DNA from: a virus
Strand: one strand, 5' to 3'
Length of the DNA: 22,381 bases
Virus record (IMG/VR): IMGVR_UViG_3300037240_000232
Location: 1 to 22,381 of that record
Position numbers and translations under genes: made by a program. The stretch's first letter is position 1. Each line of letters begins with the position of its first letter. This document shows positions 10,839-20,594 of the stretch, piece by piece. Below the pieces are notes generated by a model that searched no databases, was not told the origin of the DNA, and saw only the letters and a program-made list of their open reading frames with translations.

Positions 10839-11219
10839 ATGTCAGACGAATTAAAAAAGTTGTATAAGGTCATTCAGCCCGTTGTCTTTAGCATTCGCAG
10901 AGAAATCGGTGAACTGCTTGAGCTGACCGCTGAAGAGGCCGAGCATCTTGCTGCGTTTATTGTACCGGCTGATGAAGCCGCGCAAAGCAGCACGGATGAA
11001 AATTCGGAGCAGCAAAGTTCCGACAGTTCCCAAACTGCCGACGGATCACAAAGTTCCGAACAGCAGGAAAACCAAAACCAAGAGCAAAATCAAACGCAAA
11101 CGGATCAGACCCAAAATGCCGATCCAAACCAGCAGCCTCAAAACACAAACCAAAATGAGCAGCCTTCAAATACCGAGGGCAGTTCACAGTCTGGGGATCA
11201 GTCGCAGCAAACCGCCTAA
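10839..11219 (+). CDS. head-region protein with a long disordered Q/N/S-rich tail
   Basis: A 126-residue protein. Residues 1-45 are ordered, with an amphipathic helix followed by ELTAEEAEHLAAFIVPADE. Residues about 46-126 are almost only Gln, Asn, Ser, Glu, Asp, Thr, Pro and Gly, with no hydrophobic core, so this part is very probably disordered and acidic. A good GGGAG ribosome site lies 9 bases before the ATG. Its position directly after the major capsid gene suggests a capsid decoration or surface protein, with the small ordered part binding the shell and the tail exposed. I do not recognise a family. The stop codon lies in the stem of the next hairpin. Confidence 0.7.
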   Translation: MSDELKKLYKVIQPVVFSIRREIGELLELTAEEAEHLAAFIVPADEAAQSSTDENSEQQSSDSSQTADGSQSSEQQENQNQEQNQTQTDQTQNADPNQQPQNTNQNEQPSNTEGSSQSGDQSQQTA

Positions 11220-13570: not shown

Positions 13571-14554
13571 ATGAAAGGTATAGGAAGACTGTTTGGCGTA
13601 GGTATTGCCAAAGAAACAAGTCGAGGCACAGCCGCTTCCAGTGCCGGTTTTTGGATTCCGTTTTCTGAAGGAGCGGCCGAGGAAAAAGATCAAAAAATAA
13701 TTAACGACCAGACCATTGGTGTAATTGAGGATTCAACTGGGCAAAGCATAGTTAAGCAGTGGTCGGAAATTACCATAAAAGCTCCAATTGGCGATGCTCA
13801 TTTCCCGCTTTTGCTTTATTCCTTTTTAGGCTCTATGGCCAACGCAACTCATAGCGGCGAATCCGCTGTATATGATCATACTATTACCGTAGCTGAAAGC
13901 AGCCAGCATCAAAGCTTAACTACTTTTTTGCATGATCCGCTTGGGAGTGCAGACTATAAATATGCCAATGCAGTAGCTGACCAATTGGAGATTGACTATG
14001 TACTGGGGCAATTCCTTTCTTACAGCGCCAGTCTTAAAGCTAAAAAAGGCGCGGGCGCATCCTCATTCTCCCCGAGCTACACCGCAGAGAACAGATTCTT
14101 GCCTGCTCACCTTACATTCAAGCTGGCAACCAATTTGGCAGGACTTAACGCGGCCAGTGCCACACAGATCAAATCTTTAAAGCTTACAATTACCAAAAAC
14201 TTGGAGGATGATGACGTGCTTGGTAGCTTATCGCCAAATGATTTCCTGAATAAACAATTTGCTATTGAGGGTGAAGTAGAACTTTTGTGGAATGACGAAA
14301 CCTTTAAAACTTTAGCTTTGGCTGCCACTCCCCAAGCAGTACGACTCGACCTGGTCAACACCGGCGTGACTATCGGCTCTGCTTCCAATCCGGAGCTTAA
14401 AATTGATTTGGCATCGGTTATTTTCACAGAAATTACGCGGCCGTTTAAGGTTAATGATTTGGTCAGCCAGACTTTGAAATTTAAAGCCCACTATTCCGCC
14501 TCGGATGCCAAGATGGTCAGTATCTTAGCTACAAACACCCAAGCTTCTTATTAA
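13571..14554 (+). CDS. major tail tube protein
   Basis: A 327-residue protein. It opens with GRLFGVGIAKETSRGTAAS, the usual start of siphophage tube proteins that carry a KE.SRGT motif, then beta-rich segments (VYDHTITVAESSQHQSL) and a C-terminal beta-sandwich with FKVNDLVSQTLKFKAHYS. It stacks as rings around the tape measure to form the tail tube. A strong GAGGAAAGGA ribosome site lies upstream. Its location before the assembly chaperones and tape measure confirms the role. Confidence 0.85.
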   Translation: MKGIGRLFGVGIAKETSRGTAASSAGFWIPFSEGAAEEKDQKIINDQTIGVIEDSTGQSIVKQWSEITIKAPIGDAHFPLLLYSFLGSMANATHSGESAVYDHTITVAESSQHQSLTTFLHDPLGSADYKYANAVADQLEIDYVLGQFLSYSASLKAKKGAGASSFSPSYTAENRFLPAHLTFKLATNLAGLNAASATQIKSLKLTITKNLEDDDVLGSLSPNDFLNKQFAIEGEVELLWNDETFKTLALAATPQAVRLDLVNTGVTIGSASNPELKIDLASVIFTEITRPFKVNDLVSQTLKFKAHYSASDAKMVSILATNTQASY

Positions 14555-14576: not shown

Positions 14577-14909
14577 ATGGAACGAGAAACAAAAGAACTC
14601 ACCACACCCGGCGGTCACAAGGCAATAATTAAAACTTACCTAACGGCACGGGAAGCAAACGAAATTAAGGAAGTGTTTAATAAAGCCATCAGCATGCATT
14701 TGGAAAACGGACAGATTGTTAGTGATGCTATTCCCGCCACAGTTCTTTCGGAACAGGAAAAGAAAGTACTAGCTTTGCTTTTGGTCAGCTTGGACGGCGA
14801 TGCAAATAATATTTATGAACGGCTGCTTGATTTCAAGCAGGAGGATTACGAATTTCTAGTTGCGGAAGCTAACAATATACAAAAAGGTAATTTTCAGATG
14901 GCGAAGTAA
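14577..14909 (+). CDS. tail assembly chaperone, short form (gpG-like)
   Basis: A 110-residue helical protein starting with a strand-rich N-terminus (TTPGGHKAIIKTYLTAREANEIKE). Position and size match the gpG class of tail assembly chaperones, which bind the tape measure during assembly. The ATG at 14577 has AAAGGA upstream; an in-frame TTG at 14562 is less likely. The stop TAA (14907-14909) sits inside a 12-bp hairpin, and a -1 frame continues past it to give the longer chaperone form. Confidence 0.8.
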   Translation: MERETKELTTPGGHKAIIKTYLTAREANEIKEVFNKAISMHLENGQIVSDAIPATVLSEQEKKVLALLLVSLDGDANNIYERLLDFKQEDYEFLVAEANNIQKGNFQMAK

Positions 14910-15085
14910 CGGCAATCTGGCAGCGTTATTTCGCCTTAGGGAGGGTTGATTATCCAGTTCAGCTGGCAGCCATTCTTTGCCATGAGATGCATTGGAGCTG
15001 GGACGAATACTTAAATCAGCCGACATGGTTTATTGAACTTCTTTTGGAATATTTAAAAGTACAAAGCGAACATTTAAATAAATAA
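14577..15085 (+). CDS. tail assembly chaperone, frameshifted long form (gpGT-like)
   Basis: Predicted -1 frameshift product of about 169 residues: 106 residues of the short form, then 63 residues read from 14894 to the TAA at 15083-15085. The -1 frame is open only from 14891 (a TAA lies at 14888-14890), so the shift must occur in 14891-14906. The added part contains TAIWQRYFALG, then LAAILCHEMHWSWDEYL and a final helix, the Trp-rich helical look of T-domain chaperone parts. There is no good start codon for separate translation of this frame. The unexplained gap between the short form and the tape measure is fully used by it. Lambda gpG/gpGT is the known precedent. Confidence 0.75.
14891..14935 (+). 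promoter_or_regulatory. -1 ribosomal frameshift signal (slip run plus stem-loop)
   Basis: TTTT at 14891-14894 lets the Phe tRNA slip from TTT to TTT. A 5-base spacer (14895-14899) separates it from a stem pairing 14900-14911 with 14924-14935: 12 bp, one G-U, 12-base loop. Spacing and stem strength match known -1 frameshift signals. The slip site is not a canonical X XXY YYZ heptamer, because the preceding AAT codon cannot re-pair as TAA. Confidence 0.65.
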
Positions 15086-15089
15086 GATC

Positions 15090-16847
15090 ATGTCTGACGT
15101 TTCTACCACATTACAAATATTGGTAAAACTACAAGATGACGCTACCTCAGCTATTCAAAGCCTGGGCGGCCAAGTCGGCAGTTCCTTTGACCAGATGGCA
15201 CAAAAAGCCAGGGAGGCTGGCATTGCTATGGTCGCAGCTGGTACAGCGATTACTGGGGCTTTGGGTTACGCGGTTGATCAAGCCTCACAGGATCAGGAAG
15301 CTTGGCAGGGACTTAATACCACACTATCAGCTCTGCAAGATACCGCTAAAGAAGATACTTCAAATAAAGAACAAAACGCTGAACAGACTTCAGTTTTAAC
15401 CACCCAGGCTAAAGCATTACAGGCGCAAATCGACCAGACCCGATATGCAATGGAAAATTCAACAACTGCGCACAAAGATCATGCGGCGGCAGTTGCGGCA
15501 GGAGAAGCGAAAATAGAACTTCTTCAAAACAAACTTGATACTGTAAACCAAAAACTGCAAACTCATCAAAGCGAATTAGCATTGGCCACCGGTAATTTAG
15601 ACGATTGGGAAAAACAAATTGAGGCCGCAGCTAAAGCCAATGTAAATTTAGGTTTTAATGCAGACGATACCGCAGCAAGTATTCAAACCTTGGTAAACCA
15701 TACCAAGGATATAAATGAAGCTTTGCAGCTCAATAATATTGCTATGGATTTGGCGCGTGCCAAACACATTGATTTGAGTCAGGCTGCGAATTTAGTAGGG
15801 CTTGCCTTTGAGGGACAAGGGAAAGCATTAAAACAGTTCGGCATCAACATTAAAGATACCGCAACACCGATGGAGGCATTAAAAGAGCTCCAAGCACAGG
15901 TAGGCGGACAGGCAAAAGATTTTACCGACACTTTCGCTGGGCAGATGGATGTAATGAAAGCAAAGCAGGAAGAATTAATTGTTACTATCGGTAACCAGTT
16001 ATTGCCGGTCTTAACCCAGCTGACAGAAAAAATTTCAGATATCATCCAAAAAGTTTTAGATTGGACAAACACTCATCCGCAACTTACTAAAACTATAGTT
16101 GAAGTGGCGGCTGTAGTGGGACCATTGCTTATCCTATTGGGAAGCTTCTTAATTATTTTGCCCCAACTAGTTGCTGGAATTGGTTTAGTAGGTGCCGCCT
16201 TAGCTTTTCTTGCTGCAAACCCTGTTGTGCTTATCATCGCCGGCATTGTCGCTCTTATAGCAGCAATAGTATTAATGATTACTCACTGGCAGCAGACAAA
16301 AGATGTTGCGCTGTCGGTTTGGACTCAAATTAAAACAGTAATCGGTGGGGCAATGGATACAGTAAAAAATTATATCGACGCCGGAATGGATTATATTGAT
16401 TCTGCGTGGCGGCAAACTTGGTCAGCTATTCATGATTACGTATTAGGTATCTGGAATGACATAACAAATTCCATCACTAATTTTATTGGTAATATCATCG
16501 GCCAAATAAATAATTTAAGGAATACGTTATCAAGCGTTGCGAGTTCAGTAGGAAGCACTATAAGCAATGCTTATAATTCTGTATCATCCGCAGTTTCCGG
16601 CAAAAGAGCTTCCGGCGGATCCGTTGGCAGTGGCCAAACTTATTTAGTCGGAGAGAACGGACCCGAATTATTTACTCCAAATCAAAGCGGCTACATAACA
16701 CCCAATGGCGGTTTTGGCGGATCACCGATTGTCGTTTACGTGACCGGTAATAATATATCCAATTCCCTAAATCTAAATTATGTTGCAGAGCAGGTTGGCA
16801 GAGCAATTGTTAATAAGCTGAAGTTAAATCAAAAAATAAACGTATGA
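15090..16847 (+). CDS. tape measure protein
   Basis: A 585-residue tail-length protein. The N-terminal half is alanine- and glutamine-rich coiled coil (for example residues 90-180). A highly hydrophobic segment of several membrane-like helices lies at about 337-398, and a Gly/Ser-rich region precedes the C-terminal GENGPELFTPNQSGYI motif (about 527-542), which is typical of tape measures. It sets tail length, and at about 0.15 nm per residue predicts a tail near 88 nm. The hydrophobic part may insert in the host membrane during DNA entry. There is no Shine-Dalgarno; the start is 4 bases after the frameshift product stop. Confidence 0.93.
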   Translation: MSDVSTTLQILVKLQDDATSAIQSLGGQVGSSFDQMAQKAREAGIAMVAAGTAITGALGYAVDQASQDQEAWQGLNTTLSALQDTAKEDTSNKEQNAEQTSVLTTQAKALQAQIDQTRYAMENSTTAHKDHAAAVAAGEAKIELLQNKLDTVNQKLQTHQSELALATGNLDDWEKQIEAAAKANVNLGFNADDTAASIQTLVNHTKDINEALQLNNIAMDLARAKHIDLSQAANLVGLAFEGQGKALKQFGINIKDTATPMEALKELQAQVGGQAKDFTDTFAGQMDVMKAKQEELIVTIGNQLLPVLTQLTEKISDIIQKVLDWTNTHPQLTKTIVEVAAVVGPLLILLGSFLIILPQLVAGIGLVGAALAFLAANPVVLIIAGIVALIAAIVLMITHWQQTKDVALSVWTQIKTVIGGAMDTVKNYIDAGMDYIDSAWRQTWSAIHDYVLGIWNDITNSITNFIGNIIGQINNLRNTLSSVASSVGSTISNAYNSVSSAVSGKRASGGSVGSGQTYLVGENGPELFTPNQSGYITPNGGFGGSPIVVYVTGNNISNSLNLNYVAEQVGRAIVNKLKLNQKINV

Positions 16848-18337: not shown

Positions 18338-18898
18338 ATGCAAAAATCAATTGGACAGCAAATTAAAATTCAAGTAAATATTCGCACTTTTATTCTTGCC
18401 GGCTGGGTTAAGGAACATAGCCATTGGGTAAATTTAATCAGGCAATTCGTATTAACCGGCAACCAACAAATTTACGATTATCTTATACAGCAAGGAATAA
18501 TCCTAAATTTTCAATCCAAACATAACCTTATTACTACCCGCGGTCGGAATGTCTTATGTCGTCTACTCGCCGGCGACACTACGTATAGCGGACAAGTTAA
18601 TTACGGAGCTCTTGGGACAGGTGTAAGCCCTTCTCCGTCTAGCAGCAGCACCCAACTGGCAACTGAAGTTTATAGAAAAATTTATAGCAGCCACACACAG
18701 GACGGAGCTAATACATCATTTATAGATTTCTTCTATGCTGCCGGCGATACAAATGGTACATATACAGAATTTGGGAATTTTATTGATGGAACATCATCTG
18801 CAAACTCGGGCCAAATGTTCAGCTACGTCGCTACGGGAGGCTGGGTAAAAACTAGCCTACAGAGTTTATTTGTTAGCTGCCAATACATTATTAATTAG
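18338..18898 (+). CDS. tail tip or fibre-associated protein
   Basis: A 186-residue protein. The region NYGALGTGVSPSPSSSSTQLATEVYRKIY (about 87-116, read in two parts) is a pattern often seen in phage tail-tip proteins: a GTG turn, a Ser-rich loop, then L-A-T-E-V-Y-R-K. The second half is beta-rich with FGNFIDG. The N-terminal 45 residues are helical. It lies between the hub and the LamG protein. A structural role in the tail tip is likely, but I cannot name the family securely. Confidence 0.6.
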   Translation: MQKSIGQQIKIQVNIRTFILAGWVKEHSHWVNLIRQFVLTGNQQIYDYLIQQGIILNFQSKHNLITTRGRNVLCRLLAGDTTYSGQVNYGALGTGVSPSPSSSSTQLATEVYRKIYSSHTQDGANTSFIDFFYAAGDTNGTYTEFGNFIDGTSSANSGQMFSYVATGGWVKTSLQSLFVSCQYIIN

Positions 18899-18911
18899 AG
18901 TCAGGCGAAAT

Positions 18912-20594
18912 ATGCTTAAAACCAATTACAACCCCGGAGATAAAATTTTAGCGACGGATTTAAATGATCTTGTCAGCACTGTACTTACCAATGTACATAA
19001 TATTTTAGAATTGTTTTTAGAAAATTATTTTGCTGGAAAAAATACCCCATATCAGGGGCTTTGGTTTGATGGTTTTTCAGATACAAATAAAGCTTGCGGT
19101 GGTTCAGGGACAACTTCTGGAAGTACCAGCAGCGGCCAGAACCAAATTGTTCTTGCATCTTCCGGTCAAGCTAGTACTTTTACTATTGGCAACATAATTC
19201 AAATTTTTAACGCAACGAATCAAGAACTTAAAACAATAACAGCAATTAGTAGTGCCACACTTACTGTTGATAGCAACTTAGCTAATTCTTATGGCGATGG
19301 CAGCACTGTAAAAGAAACATCAGTAACAATAGATACAGCAGATAAAAAAATTATTACCGGCTCTTCGGGACCAGCGGAGCTAGCAAGCACTTCATTGTTT
19401 TCTGATTCAAATTTAGTTTCTTACTATCGTATGGAGGGCAATTCAAACGATAGTAAAGGTAGTAATAATGGCACAGACACCAGCATAACTTATAGCACAA
19501 GTAATGGTAAATTTGGCCAAGGCGCCGGGTTTGGTGGTTCTAGTTACATTGACCTTGGTAATCCATCTAATCTCAATGTGGGACATATTAGTGTGGCCTT
19601 TTGGCTCCAAGTTGGATCATTAAGTGCTGATTCAGTACCGGCTTCAAAGTATACAGATACCACGGCTTCATGGCTTTTCTATATAGACGGAACAGGTTCC
19701 AGTGGTTTTCACAACAAAATTAGGTTCAACATAACTAGGGACGGTACATCTGAAAGCTTCGCTAACAAGGCTACCTCCGACGATGTACTAACTCCTGGAG
19801 TTTGGTACCATGTCGTGGGTACTTATGATGGCAGCACTGTTAAATTGTATATCAACGGCCAGCTGCAATCCGATTCTACCACTGTAAGTGGAAGCATCTT
19901 TTCCGGCTCTGCTAATGTAAAAATTGGCGCGTGGCTCCCTTCAAACAGTACTACTCTGCCCAGCGGCAGTAAGGTAGATGACTTTGCCATTTTCTCCCGC
20001 GCCTTAACGGCTACCGAAGTGGCAAATTTGCAAATCGGAAATGGTAACCAATTTATTTACCAGAGTCAAAAAACACATTTTTTTGAGCCCATGAACCAAG
20101 TAAAATTATGGCTATCAAGAAAAATCTCGGCCAGCTACAATCTTTTATCTACGGCCGGTACAGGTACAAATACATTTACCTTATCAGGAGATATGACAAG
20201 TAAAATAAAAAATGGAGACTATGTTGAAATTCGCGATGCTTCAAACAATAACCGCCAGAGGTTAACTGTTGTATCCTCTTCAGTGGTCAGCGGGAATACT
20301 GTATTTTCCACAACAGAGAATTTAACTCATTCTTACACCTCTTCTGATTTTATAGAAAGAGTCGACTTCCTGCCGCAAGTAAGTTTGGTTGACACTGATG
20401 ACCCGATTGCTTACGCCACACCGACACTGGTTAAGAGCATACCCGCTACAGTAGATAGTGAACAGCTGATTGAAGATGAATACCAATATTCGCCTTCTAC
20501 TTCAGGCCGTGATTTAAATGTAGAAATTCTTGTCAGTAGAAATGATACTACCCTTAACCCATACGCAAAACGTTTAGGTGTTTCGCTTAATTAA
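18912..20594 (+). CDS. LamG / concanavalin-A-like domain protein, receptor-binding candidate
   Basis: A 560-residue protein. Residues 1-60 are an N-terminal tail-attachment-like segment (NYNPGDKILATDLNDLV is common at the start of phage tip proteins). Residues about 60-155 are Ser/Thr/Gly-rich. Residues about 158-376 form a LamG/concanavalin-like lectin domain: LVSYYRMEGNSNDSKGSNNG, then FWLQVG, WYHVVGTYDGSTVKLYING and DDFAIFSRALTATEVANL. A beta-rich C-terminal domain follows. LamG domains bind sugars or proteins, so host attachment is likely. The ATG at 18912 is preferred to a TTG at 18870 inside the upstream gene. Confidence 0.8.
   Translation: MLKTNYNPGDKILATDLNDLVSTVLTNVHNILELFLENYFAGKNTPYQGLWFDGFSDTNKACGGSGTTSGSTSSGQNQIVLASSGQASTFTIGNIIQIFNATNQELKTITAISSATLTVDSNLANSYGDGSTVKETSVTIDTADKKIITGSSGPAELASTSLFSDSNLVSYYRMEGNSNDSKGSNNGTDTSITYSTSNGKFGQGAGFGGSSYIDLGNPSNLNVGHISVAFWLQVGSLSADSVPASKYTDTTASWLFYIDGTGSSGFHNKIRFNITRDGTSESFANKATSDDVLTPGVWYHVVGTYDGSTVKLYINGQLQSDSTTVSGSIFSGSANVKIGAWLPSNSTTLPSGSKVDDFAIFSRALTATEVANLQIGNGNQFIYQSQKTHFFEPMNQVKLWLSRKISASYNLLSTAGTGTNTFTLSGDMTSKIKNGDYVEIRDASNNNRQRLTVVSSSVVSGNTVFSTTENLTHSYTSSDFIERVDFLPQVSLVDTDDPIAYATPTLVKSIPATVDSEQLIEDEYQYSPSTSGRDLNVEILVSRNDTTLNPYAKRLGVSLN

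Follow-up and report, generated by a model that had tools for sequence, protein, structure and literature searches.

The tail assembly chaperone of the virus described here is very probably made in two forms, some of the ribosomes slipping back by one base in the manner of phage lambda, as judged by comparing the window (the whole stretch of 22,381 nucleotides that was analysed, IMG/VR record IMGVR_UViG_3300037240_000232) with related loci. It appears likely that this is a programmed -1 frameshift giving a short protein of 110 aa and a long one of 169 aa, and that it would proceed by tandem slippage of two tRNAs with a mismatch at the P site. On the aligned sequences this is an ordinary lambda-type chaperone frameshift in a little-studied group of phages, with a departure of one base in the slip site of the window member.

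Gene arrangement, slip site and stem

In the record of 22.4 kb, the genes for terminase, portal, capsid, tail tube and tape measure are arranged as is usual in siphophage-like genomes. A small acidic, Q/S/N-rich low-complexity protein with no Pfam match is encoded right after the capsid gene (10839-11219), and the window also holds a DNA methylase (PF01555; 2969-4234) whose N-terminal part looks ParB-like by eye, a protein with a lectin-like Laminin_G_3 domain that is probably a tail fibre or spike (18870-20594), an N-acetylmuramoyl-L-alanine amidase that is likely the endolysin (PF01510; 20887-21528), and an FkbM-type methyltransferase (PF05050; 21837-22379, minus strand), which runs off the contig end on the strand opposite to the phage genes. 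The chaperone gene lies between the tail tube and tape measure genes, an order that is the same in the relatives L002-L004 and L008. The features of this region are as follows:

13571-14554, + strand: major/minor tail tube protein, 5' neighbour of the chaperone (phrog_290, E 7e-24)
14577-14909, + strand: zero-frame tail assembly chaperone, gpG-like, 110 aa, with ATG at 14577 and stop TAA at 14907-14909 (from ORF, gene order and fold)
14888-14890, + strand: -1-frame TAA, the 5' bound of the region in which the shift can occur and at the same time the triplet with which tRNA-Asn would re-pair (from sequence)
14888-14894, + strand: candidate slip site, degenerate heptamer T_AAT_TTT (from alignment with relatives)
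14891-15085, + strand: -1-frame extension, T-like, 64 codons including the slip codon, with the stop at 15083-15085
14895-14899, + strand: spacer CAGAT, 5 nt (from sequence; same length in nearly all relatives)
14900-14911, + strand: 5' arm of the stem, holding the zero-frame stop (from fold, covariation and wobble-codon bias)
14912-14923, + strand: apical loop, 12 nt, with two more weak pairs predicted (from fold)
14924-14935, + strand: 3' arm of the stem, coding within QRYFA in the -1 frame (from fold and covariation)
15090-16847, + strand: tape measure protein, 3' neighbour of the extension (phrog_28 and many others, E 4e-28)

A Pfam search with the chaperone matched no family, and a PDB fold search with both domains, chaperone and extension, gave no match. 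The AlphaFold model of the chaperone (pLDDT 86) had matches in BFVD that are annotated tail assembly chaperones (Foldseek, probability 1.0, E 5e-3 or weaker), and 3 of the 51 extensions of relatives matched phrog_9001, 'tail assembly chaperone'. The putative identity of the protein as a tail chaperone thus rests on gene order and modelled fold, not on Pfam.

The chaperone and extension ORFs overlap by just 16 nt 5' of the chaperone stop codon, and the first ATG in the extension frame of the window is at 14987, past the start of the conserved core. As the -1 frame is closed by the TAA at 14888-14890, the zero frame must be left between that point and 14906. Within this allowed overlap the sole run is TTTT (14891-14894), read in the zero frame as GGT AAT TTT CAG. 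The site, T_AAT_TTT, is not a canonical X_XXY_YYZ heptamer; its A-site half re-pairs perfectly (TTT to TTT), and a Z_ZZN tetramer, T_TTT, is present at 14891-14894 with zero-frame codons AAT TTT. The upstream run AAAAA (14881-14885) was rejected as a slip site, since the -1 frame entered there hits the TAA at 14888-14890 immediately. Transcriptional slippage was likewise rejected as the source of the extension, because the run has only four T and is short for that process. A Shine-Dalgarno-like AAAAAGG lies just 5' of the slip site, too near to resemble the internal one of dnaX.

An earlier note on this DNA had placed the chaperone stop at 14909 and the -1 frame at 14891-15085, had proposed a 63-residue extension and a product of about 169 residues, and had described TTTT at 14891-14894 as the only slip run, not part of a canonical heptamer, with a 12-bp stem containing the stop codon five bases past it. 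Each of these points holds in the window: 63 residues follow the slip codon, for a predicted fusion product of 169 aa, and the run, its non-canonical context and the stem are as described. In the light of the alignment, however, TTTT is the 3' part of the heptamer at 14888-14894, and it is this heptamer that appears to be the informative unit.

The predicted stem has 12 contiguous pairs with one G.U (14906.14929) and an energy of -19.0 kcal/mol. It stood out from dinucleotide shuffles (z -3.4, none of 200 equally good), and a helix of such length at the exact offset of the stem was found at 10 of 22,326 window positions. When synonymous codons were drawn according to the phage's own usage, with the -1 protein fixed, a helix of at least 12 pairs arose at the stem site in 0.2% of draws; with the zero-frame overlap also frozen, it arose in 5.5%. 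A generic minimum-energy test against synonymous recoding was weak for the window alone (22/300), and such tests were only mildly negative per locus. Since such single-locus minimum-energy tests are weak, fixed-register, wobble-codon and covariation tests were used, and the strong evidence for the stem, drawn from the aligned sequences, is comparative.

Conservation among relatives

Relatives were gathered with the tail tube protein, the capsid protein, extension profiles and a DNA pattern, and 53 loci were kept which had a clear extension (E <1e-20), a chaperone ORF ahead of it and the extension in the -1 frame of that ORF. The arrangement of chaperone followed by -1-frame extension is common to all 53, and none of them offers the extension an ATG, GTG or TTG in the 20 codons that precede its conserved core. 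No named phages were found by tblastn, and searches by chaperone, tape measure or DNA pattern found no close relatives of the window that cover the slip site; the nearest relative, L005, whose capsid protein is 98% identical, stops short of it.

Relatives of the extension were found in contigs labelled Kaiserbacteria, Uhrbacteria and Falkowbacteria, plus one labelled 'uncultured bacterium'. GAPDH and a phenylalanyl-tRNA synthetase beta-like protein are encoded on the Kaiserbacteria contig as well, and DnaK, DnaJ, alanyl-tRNA synthetase and an MnmA-like protein on the one labelled 'uncultured bacterium'; given these host-type genes, both contigs look like prophages. From these sequences the window phage would be kin to phages of tiny uncultivated bacteria, some of its relatives looking like prophages of Patescibacteria. 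A host whose ribosomes are permissive for want of bL9 was considered and rejected, as bL9 is present in 6 of 8 genomes carrying relatives.

When the loci were aligned on TTT, the commonest slip site was GGA AAT TTT, that is A_AAT_TTT, and A_AAT_TTA, G_GGT_TTT and G_GAT_TTT also occurred, so that most relatives whose P-site codon is AAT or GGT have a standard X_XXY_YYZ heptamer. G_GAT_TTT, which is non-canonical, is the site of one large clade (for example L011:14314-14320, L020:2983-2989 and L053:6890-6896). The YYZ codon is TTT in 45/51 and begins with TT, preceded by T, in all 51, a constancy that is partly by construction, given the alignment on TTT, though TTT was not bound to occur everywhere. 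The base X was constrained as well. Where a Gly codon precedes AAT it is GGA in 22 of 24 cases, against a background of 27.5% (binomial tail 7e-11). Before GAT, all 20 sites have G at X, whether the codon there is Gly, Ala, Pro or Thr (tail 7e-13); both tails overstate independence, as the sequences are related. Among the 51 sites X is mismatched only in the window, in L036 (G_CTT_TTT) and in L119 (C_AAT_TTC). These counts argue that the X base is under strong selection in the relatives and that tandem slippage is the norm of the family. By the same alignment, the window heptamer is the family heptamer with another first base, the Gly codon GGA being replaced by GGT, which is silent in the zero frame.

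Apart from TAG and ACG, no codon is conserved after TTT. A TAG stop follows the slip heptamer directly (A_AAT_TTT_TAG) at 12 of the 51 distinct sites (L018, L019, L022, L023, L025, L026, L032, L045, L074, L099, L102 and L104), so that termination and frameshifting would vie at one place. More distant relatives have other sites: T_TTT_TTA is used in L002-L004 and L009, and A-runs in L013, L038-L042, L121-L122 and L125-L128. As the deeper relatives L002-L004, L009 and L013 have other heptamers and stems, conservation of the cassette holds within a clade.

The stem was conserved along with the slip site. It starts 5 nt past the heptamer end in nearly all relatives, and in fixed register pairs 3-7 are formed in 98-100% of 51 sequences; the 12-bp stem of the window is longer than most. 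Within the stem the codons are nearly uniform when compared with the rest of the extension: GGC in 46/46 against 53/119, GAA in 45/47 against 202/387, TTC in 50/51 against 63/91 and GCC in 42/47 against 82/283. Some loci came from a DNA pattern naming GGCGAA and TTCGCC, which inflates these in-stem counts, and the same stem is present in loci from protein search alone. The near-fixed wobble bases of the stem codons thus appear unexplained by protein coding. In a set of 18 equal-length sequences (16 of them from protein search, the window included) the covariation score was 0.186, against 0.114 for shuffled sequences (0/500 as high) and at most 0.131 for slid registers. Paired exchanges in the stem were A-U/G-C, G-C/A-U and G-C/C-G, and in L024 a G-C pair has become C-G even though this alters an amino acid in each arm.

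These comparisons support the earlier proposal of a programmed -1 frameshift, in a chaperone resembling lambda gpG/gpGT, with a stem downstream. In the alignment of relatives, which had been suggested as a check, slip run and stem are kept together with the 5 nt between them, and neither an extension with its own start codon nor loss of the stem and slip run, both of which had been named as evidence against a frameshift, was seen among the 53 loci.

Proposed mechanism and alternative explanations

In the mechanism that we favour, a ribosome positioned on U_AAU_UUU, its P site holding AAU and its A site UUU, would meet the 12-bp stem 5 nt ahead. Translocation would be hindered and some ribosomes might move back by one base, the tRNA-Phe re-pairing perfectly from UUU to UUU and the tRNA-Asn going from AAU to UAA with a tolerated mismatch at the first position. 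Reading would restart at UCA (14894) to give ...KGNF-SDGEV... and the 63-residue extension, and the long form, like GT, would be expected to link the tape measure and the tail tube protein. The stem spacing of 5 nt, counted from the heptamer end at 14894, agrees with tandem slippage from AAU (P site) and UUU (A site). It is close to the arrangement in dnaX.

How much a mismatched P site might cost can be gauged from other systems. The dnaX site of E. coli, at which frameshifting is 80%, still gives 30-40% once its A1 is replaced by G or U, with slippage at the same translocation step, and U.U at P1 is one of the costliest mismatches (PMC6787027), so that a low efficiency would be expected for the window site. 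In pea enation mosaic virus, where the site G_GAU_UUU allows perfect re-pairing by the A-site tRNA only, 36-40% of activity is left when P-site re-pairing is abolished (PMC4737148). Some 35-50% of frameshifting is thus retained by the dnaX A1U variant and the plant-virus P-site variants. A low shift efficiency suffices for lambda, in which gpG and gpGT are made at about 30:1 (PMC5009743). Slippage at T_AAT_TTT is probably still occurring in the window phage.

The second-best explanation is the single-tRNA slippage suggested in the earlier note: the P-site tRNA-Phe on UUU 14892-14894 would slip alone to UUU 14891-14893 while CAG occupies the A site, and neither AAU nor its preceding base would count. 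Perfect U_UUU re-pairing is indeed the most constant feature of the family, and it is kept in the window, L119, L036 and L033 (C_CGT_TTT) despite poor P-site re-pairing; a TAG as the next codon, as in 12/51, would favour a P-site slip, and Z_ZZN is a recognised minimal -1 site (PMC5009743). If one tRNA slipped alone, however, X and XXY should drift, yet the base X is strongly conserved (22/24 and 20/20). The spacer of 5 nt is apt for a heptamer that ends at 14894; were CAG in the A site, only 2 nt would separate it from the stem. The codon that would then occupy the A site is conserved only as TAG or ACG. We therefore regard slippage of a single tRNA as possible but rather unlikely, and the selection on X and the spacing speak against it as the earlier note had proposed it. 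Both modes give an identical peptide.

It is less probable still that the cassette of the window is decaying, the loss of X=A having left the shift too weak, or that T14888 is an assembly error for a real A_AAT_TTT. The predominance of GGA before AAT in relatives (22/24), with the window among only three having X mismatched, would agree with either. Against this, the extension is intact over 64 codons with its core residues conserved, the 12-bp stem exceeds that of most relatives and the neighbouring genes are intact. Furthermore, L119 (L119:1657-1707, minus strand), from a separate branch, is also without X=A, having X mismatched and Z=C, and has retained both stem and extension. Translation of the extension without a frameshift, through a start codon of its own or by re-initiation past the chaperone stop, to which an ORF overlap as short as that of coupled genes might point, is hardly credible, being already contradicted by the lack of an ATG, GTG or TTG ahead of the core in the window or within 20 codons upstream in the 53 loci and by the conserved slip site and stem.

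Comparison with known systems

Frameshifting by -1 is widespread in the chaperone genes of tailed phages (PMC5009743; PRFect survey PMC10885494). The window resembles lambda gpG/gpGT in the position of the gene, which is flanked by those for tail tube and tape measure, in the -1 overlap, in the short and C-terminally extended chaperones and in having its slip site towards the end of the first ORF (PMC5009743). It differs from lambda-type chaperones in having no recognisable Pfam homology, a degenerate form of A_AAU_UUU, a strong 12-bp stem and a fixed 5-nt spacing. In the PRFect survey, the names of two classes for actinobacteriophage chaperones, 'twofour' and 'twoonefour', fit AATTTT of the window and GGATTTT of the G_GAT_TTT clade, which suggests that sites other than XXXYYYZ had been proposed earlier in phage chaperones (PMC10885494). 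Those classes were inferred from annotation, whereas the site described here was located by comparison and by a covarying stem, and in another phage group.

The heptamers GGAUUUU, AAAUUUU and GGGUUUU of the phage family also occur in umbraviruses and luteoviruses (pea enation mosaic, groundnut rosette and barley yellow dwarf viruses), where the sites are likewise close to the stop and P-site re-pairing is moderately needed (PMC4737148). Those are RNA viruses of eukaryotes, their stems are large and bulged and long-distance interactions take part, and, as their genes are unrelated to the phage chaperone, the shared heptamers would represent convergence. The E. coli dnaX A1U variant is alike in that bacterial ribosomes still shift on it at 30-40% although pairing at the first position is lost there too, and different in its Lys-Lys and Phe codons, its internal Shine-Dalgarno and the gene concerned; an Asn-Phe pair was not among the dnaX sites compared (PMC6787027).

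No earlier description of a frameshift cassette in Patescibacteria-linked siphophage-like viruses was found in the literature searched; the present work locates one by comparison in a large group of them. The general picture of phage chaperone frameshifting is unchanged by this finding. For annotation, the chaperone and extension ORFs should be joined. The relatives also provide a natural series of A_AAU, G_GGU, G_GAU, C_AAU and U_AAU before UUU, UUC or UUA with one conserved stem, which could be used to probe the weight of P-site re-pairing on bacterial ribosomes. A tentative reading of this series, which we hold to be possible though not favoured, is that the U_UUU slip in the A site alone drives the shift and that the P-site half tunes the ratio of short to long chaperone, A_AAU, G_GAU, G_GGU, C_CGU, C_AAU and U_AAU drifting by silent or near-silent changes before a fixed U_UU and stem. 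If this were true, U_AAU_UUU, with tRNA-Asn on UAA, would be a natural slip site undescribed in the literature searched.
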